Positions 6,078 through 36,496 of a DNA stretch of 64,000 nucleotides are shown piece by piece. The stretch is from Longimicrobiales bacterium (GTDB lineage Bacteria; Gemmatimonadota; Gemmatimonadetes; Longimicrobiales; Gaopeijiaceae): assembly GCA_029245345.1 (NCBI GenBank), contig JAQWPM010000021.1:558001-622000 (forward strand), written 5' to 3'. A program made the position numbers and the translations under genes. Numbering within the stretch: the first letter of the stretch is position 1; each line of letters starts with the position of its first letter. The notes beneath the pieces are model-generated. The model saw nothing but the letters and a program-made list of their open reading frames with translations. It ran no database searches and was not told the DNA's origin.

Positions 6078-6117
6078 ACACAAAAGGCCCGGGCAGCACC
6101 GCCCGGGCCTTTTGTGT
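6078..6117. terminator. Bidirectional intrinsic terminator
   Basis: A perfect 17-bp stem (6078-6094 with 6101-6117) with a 6-nt loop is flanked by AAAA on the left arm and TTTT on the right, so it reads as GC stem plus U-run on both strands. It lies between the convergent stops at 6050 (+) and 6141 (-) and should end both transcripts. Confidence 0.92.
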
Positions 6118-28088: not shown

Positions 28089-28118
28089 GCGCGGGCCGGT
28101 GAGGTTCCCGGCCCGCGC
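28089..28118 (-). terminator. Hairpin terminator after the amidohydrolase operon
   Basis: GCGCGGGCCGG (28089-28099) pairs perfectly with CCGGCCCGCGC (28108-28118) around an 8-nt loop, 14 nt past the stop at 28132. On the minus strand only a short T run follows. It separates the 28-33 kb operon from the PhoD gene. Confidence 0.65.
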
Positions 28119-30242: not shown

Positions 30243-31814
30243 CTACTGGGTAATCGGCCGCTGAGACGCCAAGGCGAACATCAGATCGACGTACGCGCGC
30301 TCGATCTCGCGAAGTCCAGCAATGGACGACCCCTCCGCCGGGGTCACGACCATGTACTCGTTCGGCGCATGAGCGCCGGAGCCATGACCGAACCCGGCAA
30401 ACACTAGGGGCAGACCCAGTCGCTCTGTGAACTGATAGAACGGTGCGCTCCCGGCCAGCCGCGGCGAGACCTGTGGCGTGTGGCTGTACTTGTTGAACAC
30501 TCCAATCGCGGCTTGAACGATGGGAGCCTCTACGCTGGTTTGAGCAGCCGGATACCCGGACAACTTTCGGACCACGATGTCTTCGAAGCCCTCCGCATCT
30601 AGGTGCCGGCGGATCCGTGCGAGCGCGGTGTCCGGGTCGAGTCCGTACGGCAGCCGTGAATCGACCTTCGCAGTGGCCATGTGCGGCAGAATGGTCTTCA
30701 CACCCTCCCCGGTGTATCCGCCCCAAATTCCATCGATGTTGAGTGTCGGGTGGTACAGATAACGCATGATCGCATCGCGGCCCGTGATGCCGTCGATCCA
30801 CTGCTCGACGCCTAATGCGTCCTGTTGAGCCTCGTCATTCCACGTGTCCGCCATCGCATTGATGAGGCGCTGCTCTTCGCCCGTGGGAGGGCGCACGTCG
30901 TCGTAGTAGCCGGGGACGAGAATCGTGTTGCCGTCTTCAGACACCAGGGACGAGAGCGCCTGAACAAGCCGCCAAGGCGGAGAGTCCACGATGGCTTTGT
31001 ACGACCCGTGGATCTCAGCCTGTATCGGACCGCCGCCTGCGTTGCCAACCGCTTCGATCTCTGTGTACAGGATCCCTTTCACGCCGAGGCTCATGCCGGC
31101 TCCGCCCGTGGGGCCCTGAGAGTTGAACGGGAAGAACGCACCGTCTGCCGTCTTGAGCCGATCCTCGAACTGATCCACCAGTTGGTAGTAGTGCGGAGAG
31201 CCGAGCTCTTCTTCACCTTCGGCGAGTACCATCAGGTTCACGGGAAGCGTGCCTTCTACCGCGATGATCGACTCGATGGCGTTGAGAAACGCCCGTTCCG
31301 GCCCTTTCTGATTCGTCGCACCTCGTGCCATGAGGATCTCGCCGAGGCCGGATTCGATGACCTCGGCATCGAATGGCGGCGACTCCCAGTCTTCTTCATT
31401 CACCGGCTGGACGTCATACATCAGGTAGACCATGAGCGTCCGCTCAGCGCCCGCGTCGTAGTAGCCCCACACGCCGGGATGACCATCCGTCGGGACCACC
31501 GCGGTCTCTGCGAAACCAAGCGCTTCGAGATCCGACCGGAGCATCTCGGCCATCTCCGTAATGCCATCGTTCTGCGCGCTTACGGAGCGCTGTCTCAGCC
31601 AGCGCTGGAGATTCGCCAGATGCGCCTCAAAGTTCTCATCGATATACGCATAAATGGCGTCGTGACTGCCTTCGTACGCGGGCGTCGCCGTGGCGTCGAG
31701 CTTCTCATCTGTGGAGAAGACAAAGCGTGCCGAATCGAGCTGTGCAGCGGCCGGTGAGGCGAGGATGCCGCATGCGAGCGCCGTAAGGACACTCCTGGCA
31801 AACAAGTGCTTCAT
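30243..31814 (-). CDS. Exported M20-family peptidase-like protein with altered metal site
   Basis: This 523-residue protein has a signal peptide (MKHLFARSVLTALACGILA to PAAAQ) and overall M20 dipeptidase architecture with an inserted lid/dimerisation domain. Several motifs are normal: AEGEEELGS (about residue 200, catalytic and zinc Glu), KVDSRLP and the late His in SGAHAPNEYM. Two core ligands differ. The canonical HYDVQP is MYDVQP (Met about 133), and the bridging Asp of GRG..DDKG is Asn in RGATNQKG (about 167). Nucleotides were checked at both sites. It may be an inactive homologue, a binding protein or a subfamily using other ligands. It starts 2 nt after the serine hydrolase stop. Confidence 0.85.
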   Translation of the reverse strand: MKHLFARSVLTALACGILASPAAAQLDSARFVFSTDEKLDATATPAYEGSHDAIYAYIDENFEAHLANLQRWLRQRSVSAQNDGITEMAEMLRSDLEALGFAETAVVPTDGHPGVWGYYDAGAERTLMVYLMYDVQPVNEEDWESPPFDAEVIESGLGEILMARGATNQKGPERAFLNAIESIIAVEGTLPVNLMVLAEGEEELGSPHYYQLVDQFEDRLKTADGAFFPFNSQGPTGGAGMSLGVKGILYTEIEAVGNAGGGPIQAEIHGSYKAIVDSPPWRLVQALSSLVSEDGNTILVPGYYDDVRPPTGEEQRLINAMADTWNDEAQQDALGVEQWIDGITGRDAIMRYLYHPTLNIDGIWGGYTGEGVKTILPHMATAKVDSRLPYGLDPDTALARIRRHLDAEGFEDIVVRKLSGYPAAQTSVEAPIVQAAIGVFNKYSHTPQVSPRLAGSAPFYQFTERLGLPLVFAGFGHGSGAHAPNEYMVVTPAEGSSIAGLREIERAYVDLMFALASQRPITQ

Positions 31815-31816
31815 CG

Positions 31817-33385
31817 TTATCTCGGAAGGCGCGAGGAACGAACGCGCGGGTTGTTGTGCACCCAGTAGGTCATGGCACCGTCGGGCCCCTCTTCGAAGAG
31901 GTACTCCTCACCGAGATCCCCATCGGAACGTACGCGTCGGAACGAGTTTCCTTCGATGTGCTTCAGTTTGGTCATCGCGTTGAGCGGATTGGTCGTCGGC
32001 AGGCCGATCACCACGAGCTGACCGTTCCAGGTCGTCACCATGCTCTCGGTGCCCAATGGGCGTGAGTATAGGCCGGTTAGGGTCTCGAGATCCGGGCCAT
32101 GCATCTGCAGATGATGTGCGCCCATTTCGTCCGCACTCATCGCGGCCATGCGCTGACTCATCTCATCCGTCATCTCATGGTCCTCTTCCGCGGCAGGGGC
32201 ACCTCCGTCCGCAACAGCGGCCAGAATCGCCGGCGCCATGATGTCGTACGCCATGCGTGAGAAGCTGCTCGCGCTCACCCGGCGACCATTCGTCATGAAC
32301 GTCGTCGCGATCTTGTCCTGGGGGCGGATGTTGAGGTTGCTCTCGTAGCCCGGGCACGAGCCGCCGTGGCCCACATAGGTCTTCCCGTCGCGCTTCGAGA
32401 CCGAGAAACCGAGCCCGTAGCTGCTGGTCCCATCCGGCTCGAGCCAATGAACACGTTGCATCTCGCGCAGCGTGTTCCTGTCCAAGACCTCCTCACTCGT
32501 GCCGTCGAGGACCCGGAACTGCCACATCGCGAACTTCGCGAGGTCCTCCACCGTGGAGAGCATCCCGGCGGCCGGCCCAATGCCCCGGACCTGATAGGGC
32601 GGCACCAAGCCTCGGGTCCCGTCGCGCTGAATGGGCGAATAGCCGGTCGCTAGCTGCTTCCCGCGGAGTTCGTCCAGATGCTCGGTGGTCGTATTCGTCA
32701 TACCGAGCGGCTCCAGGATGTGCCCCTTCACATAGTCGCCCCAAGACATGCCCGACTTCGCCATCACAATTTCCCCAGCGAGCGTCAGGCCAAGGTTGGA
32801 GTACTGGTAGTGGGTCCGAGCCGGGTAGAGCATCTCCTGGTTGGAGAGACCCTCCACGATTGCATCGTGCGTGGGGAACGGGAAGTCGGGCCCGCTCCAG
32901 TATGGGGCGTCCGCCTCGCGAGGCAGTCCGGACGAGTGCGTGAGCACCCCCTCGATCGTGACCGGTCCTAGCCCTGGGAATTGCTGCTCGAGATCGAACC
33001 ACTCGAGGTGGTCACCCACGTCGTCCCGGATGGTCAGTGCGCCTTCGTCGCGCAGCTGCATGATGCTCGTCGCGGTAAAGAGCTTCGAGATCGAGCAGAT
33101 CGAGTACATCGTGCTCGGGGTCGCTGGCTCCTCTGCTTCGACATGTGCGTACCCGAAGCCGCCGGCGTAAACGAGTTCTTGGTCGTGCACGACGGCCACG
33201 GAAGCCCCAGGAATTCGTTCGTAGTCCCGTTGCGCCTGAATCCACGTCTCGAGCAGGCGGGTGGCCTCTTGGACGCGTGGATGGTCGGCGACCGACTGCG
33301 CTGAGGCTGCCGACGGAAGGACGAAGGACGCCGCGGCAACTGCGGCAAATACGACGAAATGTCTCGGAGCGAAACGGCGGACCAT
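31817..33385 (-). CDS. Exported serine hydrolase of the class C beta-lactamase/PBP fold
   Basis: ATG 33385 was chosen over the GTG at 33427 because AGGAGG precedes it and the signal peptide is then compact (residues 1-30, PSAASAQ). The 522-residue product carries the three active-site motifs of the beta-lactamase/D-aminopeptidase fold: SISK (nucleophile Ser98, Lys101), YSN in HYQYSNLG (about residue 202) and HGG in VGHGGSCPG. A C-terminal domain of about 140 residues follows a Glu/Met-rich linker. Such enzymes act as esterases, D-peptidases or amidases; resistance to antibiotics should not be assumed. It leads the M20/Smr/amidohydrolase operon. Its ribosome site lies inside a hairpin. Confidence 0.9.
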   Translation of the reverse strand: MVRRFAPRHFVVFAAVAAASFVLPSAASAQSVADHPRVQEATRLLETWIQAQRDYERIPGASVAVVHDQELVYAGGFGYAHVEAEEPATPSTMYSICSISKLFTATSIMQLRDEGALTIRDDVGDHLEWFDLEQQFPGLGPVTIEGVLTHSSGLPREADAPYWSGPDFPFPTHDAIVEGLSNQEMLYPARTHYQYSNLGLTLAGEIVMAKSGMSWGDYVKGHILEPLGMTNTTTEHLDELRGKQLATGYSPIQRDGTRGLVPPYQVRGIGPAAGMLSTVEDLAKFAMWQFRVLDGTSEEVLDRNTLREMQRVHWLEPDGTSSYGLGFSVSKRDGKTYVGHGGSCPGYESNLNIRPQDKIATTFMTNGRRVSASSFSRMAYDIMAPAILAAVADGGAPAAEEDHEMTDEMSQRMAAMSADEMGAHHLQMHGPDLETLTGLYSRPLGTESMVTTWNGQLVVIGLPTTNPLNAMTKLKHIEGNSFRRVRSDGDLGEEYLFEEGPDGAMTYWVHNNPRVRSSRLPR

Positions 33386-33386
33386 G

Positions 33387-33417
33387 TTGGCCTCCTGTGC
33401 GGGATACAGGAGGCCAA
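33387..33417 (-). promoter_or_regulatory. Hairpin sequestering the ribosome binding site of the serine hydrolase gene
   Basis: On the minus strand TTGGCCTCCTGT (33417-33406) pairs perfectly over 12 bp with ACAGGAGGCCAA (33398-33387) around a 7-nt loop ATCCCGC. The complete AGGAGG is in the 3' arm, and the stem ends one base before ATG 33385. Folded RNA would hide the ribosome site. If translation began at GTG 33427 the hairpin would instead lie within the coding region. Confidence 0.6.
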
Positions 33418-33444
33418 TTTGGCGCACGTGGCCCTAGGTCGCCA

Positions 33445-33727
33445 TCACCGCTCGCCGTGCGCGGTTGTCACGAGCTCGAATACGCCTGTCTTTCGGCGTT
33501 CGTCCAAGATCCGCTCAACCTCACGGTGACCTTCCAGCAGATTCTCCATGTCACCCGCCAGCCCCTTGGCCGCCTTCAATTCCATCGTCAGGCTCTCCAC
33601 CGTTCCGGTGCCAGCCTGCATATAGAGGAGCCCCAACCGGATCGACTCGAGCGCCGCGACCGCGGCCTGCGAGCGCCTTTTGGAAGGCGAGCAGTTCGGG
33701 CGTCGGTGCGGTCGGCAGGTCGGTCAT
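33445..33727 (-). pseudogene. Small coiled-coil-like gene with a frameshift
   Basis: ATG 33727 (GGGAG upstream) opens MTDLPTAPTPELLAFQK. The natural continuation, RRSQAAVAALESIRLGLLYM and on to FELVTTAHGER, is in another frame. The switch falls at the AAAA run in CTTCCAAAAGG (about 33678-33681), and the total of 283 nt is one base more than a whole number of codons. The joined product, about 93 residues, would be helical and charged (MELKAAKGLAGDMENLLEGHREVERILDE). I do not recognise a family. It may be a real indel, a sequencing error in a homopolymer or, less likely, programmed slippage. It lies just upstream of the serine hydrolase gene. Confidence 0.55.
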
Positions 33728-33852
33728 CGTGCTCCCATGATCGGTCAGCATGTGGGCCTGAGGCAAGGACCATGTCCAGAGCCTTCCCTCATCCTCCTGC
33801 CCTCCCTTACTTTCCGGCCCGTCATCACACCAACACCAGCACGCAGACCCCC

Positions 33853-34218
33853 ATGGACCTCAAGATCAACGGCACCGTCACTCAGATCCTCGAAGAGGCA
33901 TCTGGCGAGGGAAAGAACGGCACCTGGCGCAAGCAGGAGTTCATTCTCGAGACGGACGGCAACTACCCCAAGCAGATCTGCATCGTCATGTGGGGTGACA
34001 ACATCGACAAGTTCGGCATCTCGGAGAACGAGAAGCTGACGGCGCACATCGACATCGCGAGCCGTGAGTACAACAGCCGTTGGTACACGGACATCAAGGC
34101 GTGGAAGGTCGAGCGTGAGTCTGGTGGTGGTGGGCAATCGGGACCGCCGGTGCAGTCGAATGAGCCGTTCCCGGAGCCCCCGGAAACGAATGACGACGAC
34201 GACGGGCTGCCGTTCTAG
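33853..34218 (+). CDS. DUF3127 OB-fold-like protein with SSB-type acidic tail
   Basis: This 121-residue protein matches DUF3127 along its first 90 residues: INGTVTQILEE, KNGTWRKQEFILET, IVMWGDNIDKF and SREYNSRWYTDIKAWKVE. The pattern suggests a small OB fold that may bind single-stranded nucleic acid, an inference from the family. After a Gly-rich and Pro-rich linker it ends in DDDDGLPF, very like the C-terminal tip by which SSB recruits repair and replication proteins. ATG 33853 follows a long leader without a strong ribosome site. It is divergent from the frameshifted gene and followed by a terminator-like hairpin. It is cytoplasmic, unlike most neighbours. Confidence 0.85.
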   Translation: MDLKINGTVTQILEEASGEGKNGTWRKQEFILETDGNYPKQICIVMWGDNIDKFGISENEKLTAHIDIASREYNSRWYTDIKAWKVERESGGGGQSGPPVQSNEPFPEPPETNDDDDGLPF

Positions 34219-34279
34219 GGAGTGATGTCCCCCGCGGGCCCGCATTGCCGGTTCGCAGCGAACGCCCCACCCTGACCTT

Positions 34280-34304
34280 AGTCGCCTCACCTGTTGAGGT
34301 GACT
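34280..34304 (+). terminator. Terminator-like hairpin after the DUF3127 gene
   Basis: AGTCGCCTCA (34280-34289) pairs with TGAGGTGACT (34295-34304), including one G-U pair, around a 5-nt loop. GCTTCTT follows. It lies between the DUF3127 stop and the S9 peptidase start. Confidence 0.5.
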
Positions 34305-34327
34305 GCTTCTTCAAGGTCGAGGTCGTT

Positions 34328-36496
34328 ATGCCGTTTGCCCTGGTCGGTCCCCGCGTCCGCTACTTGGTGAGCTCCTGCGTCGTCGGGCTCGTCATGCTGG
34401 CTATCCCGGCACCGACACACGCTCAGTCATATTCGATCGATGACATTCTGAGCCCTGGCTTCCCCTTGAGTTTGGTCTCAGCCAAGGCCGCAGACCGCAT
34501 CGCCTGGGTCGAGTTCGAGCGTGGTATGCGCAACCTGTACACGGCCGCGGCACCGGACTTCGCGCCTGTTCGCCTCACCAACTTCATGGACGACGACGGG
34601 CACGACATGGCCGAGGCGCAGATCTCGGACGACGGGTCCGTGATCGCGTTCATCCGCGGGCACACGCCGAACAGAGAAGGTTGGATCGCTAATGTGCTGA
34701 GCGACCCCCGTGGTACCGAGAGGGCCATCTGGGCGGCGAGCACGAAGGGCGGCGAGCCTTGGCGAGTCGTCGAAGCCTGGAACCTCGCGCTGTCCCCAGA
34801 CGGGAAGTGGGTGGCCTACGACAAGGACGGTGCAATCTACCGCGCCGCGGTGAATCCAGGCACGAACGACTCCGGGACCGTGGACGCCGCCCCGCCGCTC
34901 TTCAGCGTCTTCGGCGACAATCGGGATCCGGTGTGGTCACCAGACTCGAAGAAGCTCGCATTTGTCAGTGTTCGGGGAGACCACAGCTACATCGGCATCT
35001 ACGACACCGAAAACCCTGGTATCACCTATCTGGCGCCCGGGGTGGATCGGGACTCGAGCCCAACGTGGTCACCGGACGGTCAGCGCATCGCCTTCATACG
35101 CCGCCCGGGTCTCCCCTTCGGGAGCCACGCGGATCCGGGTGAAGCCACCGAAGCAGAACTCCCGGACGGACTCCTGACCGCACGCTTCGCCGGCGGATAC
35201 GACTGGTCTATCTGGGTCGCTTCAGGGGATGGCGGCCACGGCGGAGAAATCTGGCACAACGCCCCCGAAGACGAACTTCACGGTGAAGTGCGTGAGATCA
35301 TCTGGGCAGACGAGAGCATCCTCTTCCAGGCAGAACCCGACGGGTGGCGGCACTACTACTCGGTCTCTACCGAGCACCCTGACGAAGCGGTCCTTCTCAC
35401 TCCTGGCGACGGAATCGCGGAGCACATCTCGCTGTCCCCAGACGGCGCGACGCTCTACTACGCGACGAACGTCGACGACATCGATCGCAGACATTTGTGG
35501 AAGGTCAGCACGTCGGGAGGCCGCGCCACTCAGCTGAGCCGCGGAGCGACGATCGAGACGTATCCAGCGGTGCTCGCCTCTGAAAGCCACATCGCCACGC
35601 TCGCCGGAGATGGTGCACGGTCGTTGGGCGTTGCTCTCGTCCCCACGGATGGCGGGTCGCCAGAGTACATCACGAGCCTTCCGGACGAGTATCCGCTCGA
35701 GCAGCACATCGAGCCTGAGGCCGTCACGCTCACAGCAGAAGATGGTTTCGAGTTCTACAACCAGGTCTGGGTGCCAGAGGATCTGGAGCCAGGAGAGAAG
35801 CGACCTGCCCTGCTGTTCATTCACGGTGGGTCCCGTCGGCAGATGCTGCTCGGCTACCACTACATGCACTTCTACCACATGTCCTACGCGATGAATCAGT
35901 ACTTCGCGAACAAGGGCTACATCGTCATGTCGGTGAACTACCGGAGCGGGATCGGTTACGGTCGGGACTTCCGGAATGCACCCGGCCGTGGCGGCGAAGG
36001 CAACACGGAGTACCAGGACGTGCTCGCGGCCGGGCAGTATCTCCAGAGCCGTCCGGACGTCGACACCGACAAGCTCGGTGTGTGGGGCCTGTCGTACGGG
36101 GGCATCCTGACGGCCCAGGGGCTGGCGAGGAATTCTGACGTCTTCAAGGCGGGTGTCGATCTCGCCGGGGTGCATCTCAGGGGTGAATCGATCAGTCCGG
36201 AGTCGCTCACATACACTTCGTCAGCGATCTCTGCCGTGGAGACCTGGACGTCACCCGTACTGCTCATGCACGGAGACGACGACCGGAATGTGCCGTTCCA
36301 GCAGACTGTCGGGCTGGTACAAGCTCTTCGGGCCCAAGACGTGCCGTTCGAGTTGATCGTCTTTCCGGACGACGTGCACGACTCACTGGTGTACGATCGC
36401 TGGCTGCACGCGTTCGGTGCGACGGAGGAATTTTTCGATCGGGTGATGCTGCGTGGAGAGGCGATCGAGGGGGAGGTGAACCGGTTCCGGCGGTAG
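34328..36496 (+). CDS. Exported S9-family prolyl oligopeptidase-like peptidase
   Basis: This 722-residue protein has a signal peptide (to PAPTHAQ, about residue 33) and GAGGT before ATG 34328. Residues about 60-460 form a DPP4/TolB-like beta-propeller with SPDGKWVAY, SPDSKKLAF and SPDGQRIAF blades. The C-terminal alpha/beta-hydrolase domain holds the triad: Ser in WGLSYGG (about 591), Asp in HGDDDRNVPF (about 656) and His in PDDVHDS (about 688). S9 enzymes of this type release dipeptides or acyl-amino acids from peptides. Its 3' end, from [13 protein letters not shown] onward, is part of a 208-bp segment repeated at 45103-45310, where the stop has become GAG. Confidence 0.93.
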   Translation: MPFALVGPRVRYLVSSCVVGLVMLAIPAPTHAQSYSIDDILSPGFPLSLVSAKAADRIAWVEFERGMRNLYTAAAPDFAPVRLTNFMDDDGHDMAEAQISDDGSVIAFIRGHTPNREGWIANVLSDPRGTERAIWAASTKGGEPWRVVEAWNLALSPDGKWVAYDKDGAIYRAAVNPGTNDSGTVDAAPPLFSVFGDNRDPVWSPDSKKLAFVSVRGDHSYIGIYDTENPGITYLAPGVDRDSSPTWSPDGQRIAFIRRPGLPFGSHADPGEATEAELPDGLLTARFAGGYDWSIWVASGDGGHGGEIWHNAPEDELHGEVREIIWADESILFQAEPDGWRHYYSVSTEHPDEAVLLTPGDGIAEHISLSPDGATLYYATNVDDIDRRHLWKVSTSGGRATQLSRGATIETYPAVLASESHIATLAGDGARSLGVALVPTDGGSPEYITSLPDEYPLEQHIEPEAVTLTAEDGFEFYNQVWVPEDLEPGEKRPALLFIHGGSRRQMLLGYHYMHFYHMSYAMNQYFANKGYIVMSVNYRSGIGYGRDFRNAPGRGGEGNTEYQDVLAAGQYLQSRPDVDTDKLGVWGLSYGGILTAQGLARNSDVFKAGVDLAGVHLRGESISPESLTYTSSAISAVETWTSPVLLMHGDDDRNVPFQQTVGLVQALRAQDVPFELIVFPDDVHDSLVYDRWLHAFGATEEFFDRVMLRGEAIEGEVNRFRR

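Follow-up and report, generated by a model that had tools for sequence, protein, structure and literature searches.

How is an intact gene to be translated when its ribosome binding site lies within a perfectly paired RNA stem that ends a single base before the start codon, and is such a stem a regulatory element or an accident of its surroundings? The question is raised by a gene on the minus strand of the window, by which we mean the whole stretch of 64,000 nucleotides from a Longimicrobiales bacterium that was analysed. The gene (31817..33385, ATG start) encodes a 522-aa serine hydrolase of the beta-lactamase class (Pfam PF00144, E 2.5e-66, 224.5 bits). A preliminary description of this DNA, made from its letters, had placed a 12-bp stem without mismatches, closed by a 7-nt loop, one base ahead of the ATG and the full AGGAGG within the 3′ arm of that stem, and both statements are borne out in the minus-strand sequence. 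The hairpin, recovered alike by sequence, folding and repeat search, occupies 33387..33417 on the minus strand; the Shine-Dalgarno (SD) sequence AGGAGG lies at 33396-33391, 5 nt before the ATG (33385-33383), and the one base between stem and ATG is 33386. Read on the plus strand, the arms are TTGGCCTCCTGT (33387-33398) and ACAGGAGGCCAA (33406-33417), which form Watson-Crick pairs at 12 of 12 positions around the loop GCGGGAT (33399-33405). An inverted-repeat search returned the hairpin as a 17-nt arm pair at 88%, and, as read from the arms, three extra pairs past two mismatches extend it into the AUG.

The stem alone has a predicted energy of -21.1 kcal/mol at 37 °C. Folded as the minus strand, the 65-nt stretch between the upstream stop and the start has a z of -2.98, with 2 of 200 shuffles folding equally well, and the 121-nt region around the hairpin, folded as the plus strand, has a z of -3.15. 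By sequence and predicted folding, then, the Shine-Dalgarno sequence, together with the start codon, is paired in a stable local stem, as in elements that occlude a ribosome binding site. By the physics of such folding, a start at ATG 33385 should be strongly impeded.

How unusual is such a start within its own genome? Among 473 start regions on 622 kb of contig C21, taken from an ORF-based script prediction that picked starts by SD and ATG, the one with the hairpin is the most stable: from -40 to +8 it folds with -27.4 kcal/mol, against a mean of -11.1 and a standard deviation of 4.3, and its perfect stem of 12 bp compares with longest stems of 3-8 bp at the other 472 genes. Within the part of the genome sampled, the hairpin is an outlier among start regions. 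Perfect stems of at least 12 bp turned up once in 3 x 400 kb of first-order Markov sequence, against twice in 400 kb of the real contig, and the window holds two; a shuffle control with 0 matches says little, as it covers the exact hairpin sequence only. A looser pattern, GCCTCCT, a gap, AGGAGGC, a short gap and ATG, occurs 31 times in 121 family genomes taken together, versus 28 for the reversed control, and 2 versus 2 times in the genome itself, so we reject a family-wide habit of hiding the SD. Short SD-hiding repeats before an ATG are at background level, and it is length that distinguishes this hairpin.

Some sites of similar build were seen along the way. The sole other match in the same genome to CCTCCT, gap, AGGAGG, short gap and ATG is L021 (G000:C21:93784-93812), and in another genus L103 (G102:C2:4971-5017) has a GCCTCCT...AGGAGGC repeat with an ATG behind it on each strand, alike in its SD-hiding layout. 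Within the window, a perfect 17-bp inverted repeat with a 6-nt loop (6078-6117) stands between convergent genes and looks like a bidirectional terminator, and a perfect 11-bp stem (28089-28118) begins 13 nt past the stop of an amidohydrolase gene, in a stretch with a z of -4.21 and with a weak T tail. As for copies of the hairpin itself, a search of its own genome that allowed up to 3 mismatches found the repeat once only, 33 other genomes searched with exact arms and a loop of 3-12 nt yielded none, and four relatives gave no match to the 121-nt region; a repeat family is rejected on these counts.

The relatives of the hydrolase allow a test of conservation. Matches at E <= 1e-90 are present in 48 of 121 family genomes, its own included; GTDB genomes contribute 18 loci, some of them in MAGs that bear the name Gemmatimonadales. 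We examined 45 of the 47 other family genomes (31 loci and 14 added later), leaving out G091 and G104, where the match begins only at residue 87 and 134, and used 10 of the 18 GTDB loci, leaving out L033 (no N-terminus) and L035-L041 (identity <=34%); L011-L020 were also excluded (<=41% identity or a fragment). This gave 55 relatives, 50 of them testable, with an SD of 4 nt or more; the other five are L002, whose start could not be assigned, L027, L029 and L051, without an SD, and L137, with an SD of 3 nt. Some redundancy remains in this count, as 6 of the 37 testable members of the first batch repeat the start region of another row (the 14 later loci are mutually distinct and were not compared across batches). 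The start region of L025, of UBA1142, is identical to that of L006 from the window's own family, which would place the window in the Gemmatimonadota.

Stems were sought with loops of 3-12 nt, within -45 to +12 of the start, covering at least 4 SD bases. In none of the 50 testable relatives does the SD lie in a perfect stem of more than 4 bp, the longest being 4 bp; when G-U pairs and one mismatch are allowed, up to 9 pairs cover the SD, and in the register of the window's own stem the relatives could form only 0 to 6 of its 12 pairs. Many relatives have AGGAGG, GGAGG or AGGAG before the start. The upstream stretch of the nearest relative, L002 (62%), contains no perfect stem of more than 5 bp. 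At L112 (G014:C5:170001-190000), the closest hydrolase relative, the 5′ end of the gene is interrupted and the start cannot be assigned. The preliminary description had proposed covariation in orthologues as a check, and there is nothing to covary; a conserved control is not supported, the hairpin being absent from all 50 testable relatives. It had also named, as one finding that would speak against it, a lack of pairing under the same gene order: the lack of pairing is there, and the relatives were not found to share the gene order. On the comparative evidence, the hairpin is a solitary local oddity with no regulatory family.

The gene order deserves a closer look. An M20 peptidase gene (30243..31814, minus strand, Pfam PF01546) begins 2 nt past the hydrolase stop. 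Its product has counterparts of 83-84% identity in two genomes from a different genus (L124, L125), neither of which has a hydrolase match at E <= 1e-90. When the window's neighbours were compared by tblastn with 45 hydrolase loci, no M20 gene was found downstream of the hydrolase, many of these loci extending only 1.5 kb past the match, so that a distant M20 would be missed. An M20 of 31-32% identity lies upstream of the hydrolase at 4 of the 45 loci (L024, L032, L054, L055), which, judged by identical start regions, are two genomes, each present in two collections. A conserved hydrolase-M20 operon was accordingly not found in the loci of the relatives, and the pair looks like a patchwork, or like the outcome of a recent transfer.

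On its other side the hairpin adjoins what had been described as a small upstream gene. By comparison with the frames of relatives and with Pkinase PF00069, this is a C-terminal fragment of a Ser/Thr protein kinase, spread over two frames (33445..33727, minus strand), with a PELLAFQ stretch in one and the kinase-like end in the other. The 63-residue upstream frame has matches in nine other family genomes, mostly at the end of a long frame, and both of the two long-frame relatives that were scanned carry Pkinase PF00069. The stop of the fragment is at 33447-33445, and the stem begins 27 nt later. Divergent from the fragment is a DUF3127 gene (33853..34218, plus strand), which is also its neighbour in the congener G001 (L111). 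There, a shorter kinase fragment, with PELLAFQ and the kinase-like end in a single frame, again adjoins the divergent DUF3127 gene, with the Smr gene, also shared, further along; the DNA between fragment and Smr gene differs, and neither the hydrolase nor the M20 of the window has a match in it. Since the fragment in G001 borders other genes, the hairpin sits at a rearrangement junction: judged from this alignment of gene orders, it is at the meeting of genus-conserved and differing DNA, and the synteny break is within the spacer of about 60 nt. We did not count the hairpin found at the same place in G001, the 8-bp outer stem of its spacer, which at a z of -0.10 is no better than shuffles. The split of the kinase fragment would reflect decay of the gene in the genus, or partly a base error of the assembly.

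What, then, might the hairpin do? The reading we favour, though tentatively and at somewhat under an even chance, is that it acts as a lineage-specific constitutive brake on translation from read-through RNA rather than as a switch that senses anything. The hairpin would have arisen in this lineage where the hydrolase-M20 pair meets the eroded kinase gene. On any transcript with both arms, whose start would lie in the kinase fragment or ahead of it, the stem would form once the 3′ arm leaves the polymerase, and the formed stem would lock the Shine-Dalgarno, leaving almost no time for a 30S subunit to bind. From such read-through RNA the hydrolase would go nearly or wholly untranslated. It would then be made weakly, or from short transcripts that begin within the 5′ arm or the loop and are therefore stem-free. 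Because the hydrolase frame is open over all 522 aa and scores so highly against PF00144, some expression is likely. No promoter was predicted in 33000-34400 with an E. coli-type, sigma-70-like consensus, which leaves the short stem-free transcript unsupported. A stronger form of the same idea, by analogy with T4 gene e, would make of the hairpin a newly arisen guard against read-through, a 12-bp stem placed over an inherited Shine-Dalgarno at the junction, such that transcripts from the kinase side are silent and those started within the repeat are translated; we think this unlikely. If the block is real, the locus would offer a clean example from nature of an intact gene whose perfect Shine-Dalgarno lies under a very stable hairpin, and would show how gene junctions can create initiation blocks.

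The alternative that survives best is that the hairpin is a neutral scar, its 5′ arm being an inverted copy of the ribosome binding site left at the junction by an error of fold-back or template switching and having no selected role. Only the 3′ arm resembles the start regions of relatives, for example AAGGAGGCCCC ATG in L063, and no counterpart of the 5′ arm was seen; the synteny break with G001 in the short spacer and the lack of further copies, at home or in the 33 other genomes, suit such an origin as well. Against it, so strong a block should carry a cost where the intact gene behind it is in use, and no close strain with the pre-event sequence was found. We regard the scar as a possible explanation, on the unlikely side. 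As the stem occurs in one genome only, adaptive use and scar cannot be told apart by its distribution, and its absence in relatives argues equally against a selected function and for a new one.

It is rather improbable that the stem is instead a terminator or 3′-end hairpin of the upstream kinase (fragment) transcript, which overlaps the next ribosome binding site by chance. Perfect stems of 11-17 bp do start 0-32 nt past the stop at 10 of the 473 gene ends (8 distinct hairpins), and our hairpin, starting 27 nt after the fragment stop, has the same build as those post-stop stems. Its tail, CATGGTCC, has 2 T in 8, however, where 9 of those 10 stems have at least 3 T, and the minus-strand tail CATGGTCCGC lacks the U tract that, behind a GC-rich stem, makes an intrinsic terminator; a terminator scan called none at the hairpin. 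Nor do the relatives point that way, since a perfect stem of at least 5 bp occurs in the 80 nt past the stop at only 3 of 8 kinase-related loci (6, 5 and 5 bp), and the congener's spacer, as noted above, folds no better than chance.

In a true regulatory switch the stem would be opened by translational coupling, heat, or a protein or small RNA. The preliminary description had proposed control of this kind, through coupling, a protein or a thermosensor, and of that proposal one part stands: the hairpin is real and, among the starts sampled, extreme, and hindrance of translation at the hydrolase start is expected, while coupling, a thermosensor and conservation are unsupported. The perfect pairing and its placement over SD and AUG are what one would look for in a switch, and yet it is shared by none of the 50 testable relatives. 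Coupling to the upstream small gene was put forward, and that frame is the kinase fragment, which stops 27 nt short of the stem. As the footprint of a terminating ribosome reaches only some 15 nt past the stop, a ribosome ending there would hardly open the stem. A thermosensor fares no better: the stem is perfect, and its predicted energy goes from -24.99 kcal/mol at 25 °C to -18.6 at 45 °C and is still -12.5 at 65 °C, such that it should stay closed across the normal temperature range. Nor does the hairpin belong to a known RNA family, a reading we reject, as Rfam gave no match above gathering score in 33000-34400 and its two sub-threshold matches both lie away from the hairpin; its own genome, too, holds no second copy. 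A switch is therefore very unlikely, though an element controlled by a protein or small RNA keeps a small chance.

We give hardly any credence to a start at GTG 33427, with the stem inside the coding sequence and opened by elongating ribosomes. This GTG (33425..33427, minus strand) is the only other upstream start in the hydrolase frame, 14 codons upstream of the ATG; the frame is open from 33433, and a weak SD-like AGGG lies 4 nt ahead of it. Against it stands the position of the chosen start in relatives, which in 47 of 53 (L062 left out, and with a start-choice rule that itself favours nearness) is within 10 residues of that expected for ATG 33385; most of them, judged by eye, have a short charged end and then a signal-like stretch at the N-terminus. 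A 30S subunit at the GTG would, moreover, probably still overlap the first stem pairs. From the N-termini of the relatives, ATG 33385 is the preferred start of the hydrolase, with GTG 33427 a minor rival. Just as remote is a DNA operator of two 12-bp half-sites for a dimeric repressor or activator, for although the dyad at the gene start is perfect, with half-site centres 19 bp apart, the genome has no second site at up to 3 mismatches and no regulator is among the 8 neighbouring proteins scanned.

In the literature on Shine-Dalgarno hairpins of gemmatimonads, judging by titles, no such element was found, and the closest parallels to the hairpin come from other systems. According to excerpts of a review (PMC12548453), unfolding-type translational coupling likewise has an upstream reading frame followed by a ribosome binding site held in a stem, works best at short intergenic distance, and in f1 VII/IX disappears when the upstream frame ends well ahead of the hairpin; unlike in those cases, the upstream frame here is a gene fragment that ends 27 nt before the stem. 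The RNA thermometer psaA of Chlamydomonas, as presented in excerpts of PMC10639063, is also a hairpin over the Shine-Dalgarno, but there the SD is masked at 25 °C and melted at 40 °C, whereas the stem here is predicted to be intact at 65 °C. The same geometry is known from phage T4 gene e (together with soc, 49 and I-TevI), where long transcripts lock the SD and/or AUG in an RNA helix; PMC3014915 describes for gene e a ribosome binding site hidden on long transcripts, short transcripts from which the 5′ portion of the structure is missing, and a 100-fold difference. These short transcripts come from late promoters of gene e, whereas no promoter was seen at our locus with an E. coli-type consensus, and the likely gene e stem has been drawn for related phages (PMC3014915), whereas the hairpin here has no counterpart in the relatives examined. 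In the MS2 coat initiation hairpin, too, initiation depends on the stability of a local stem that covers SD and start codon: data of van Duin and de Smit, as fitted by a model in the excerpts of PMC9894550, give a rate of 21.7 per min at -7.9 kcal/mol and of 5.9 at -9.5, a drop of about fourfold in a range that the stem here far exceeds. The wild-type coat hairpin, at -7.9 kcal/mol (42 °C), is open enough for high expression, whereas the hairpin before the hydrolase is predicted at -21 (37 °C).
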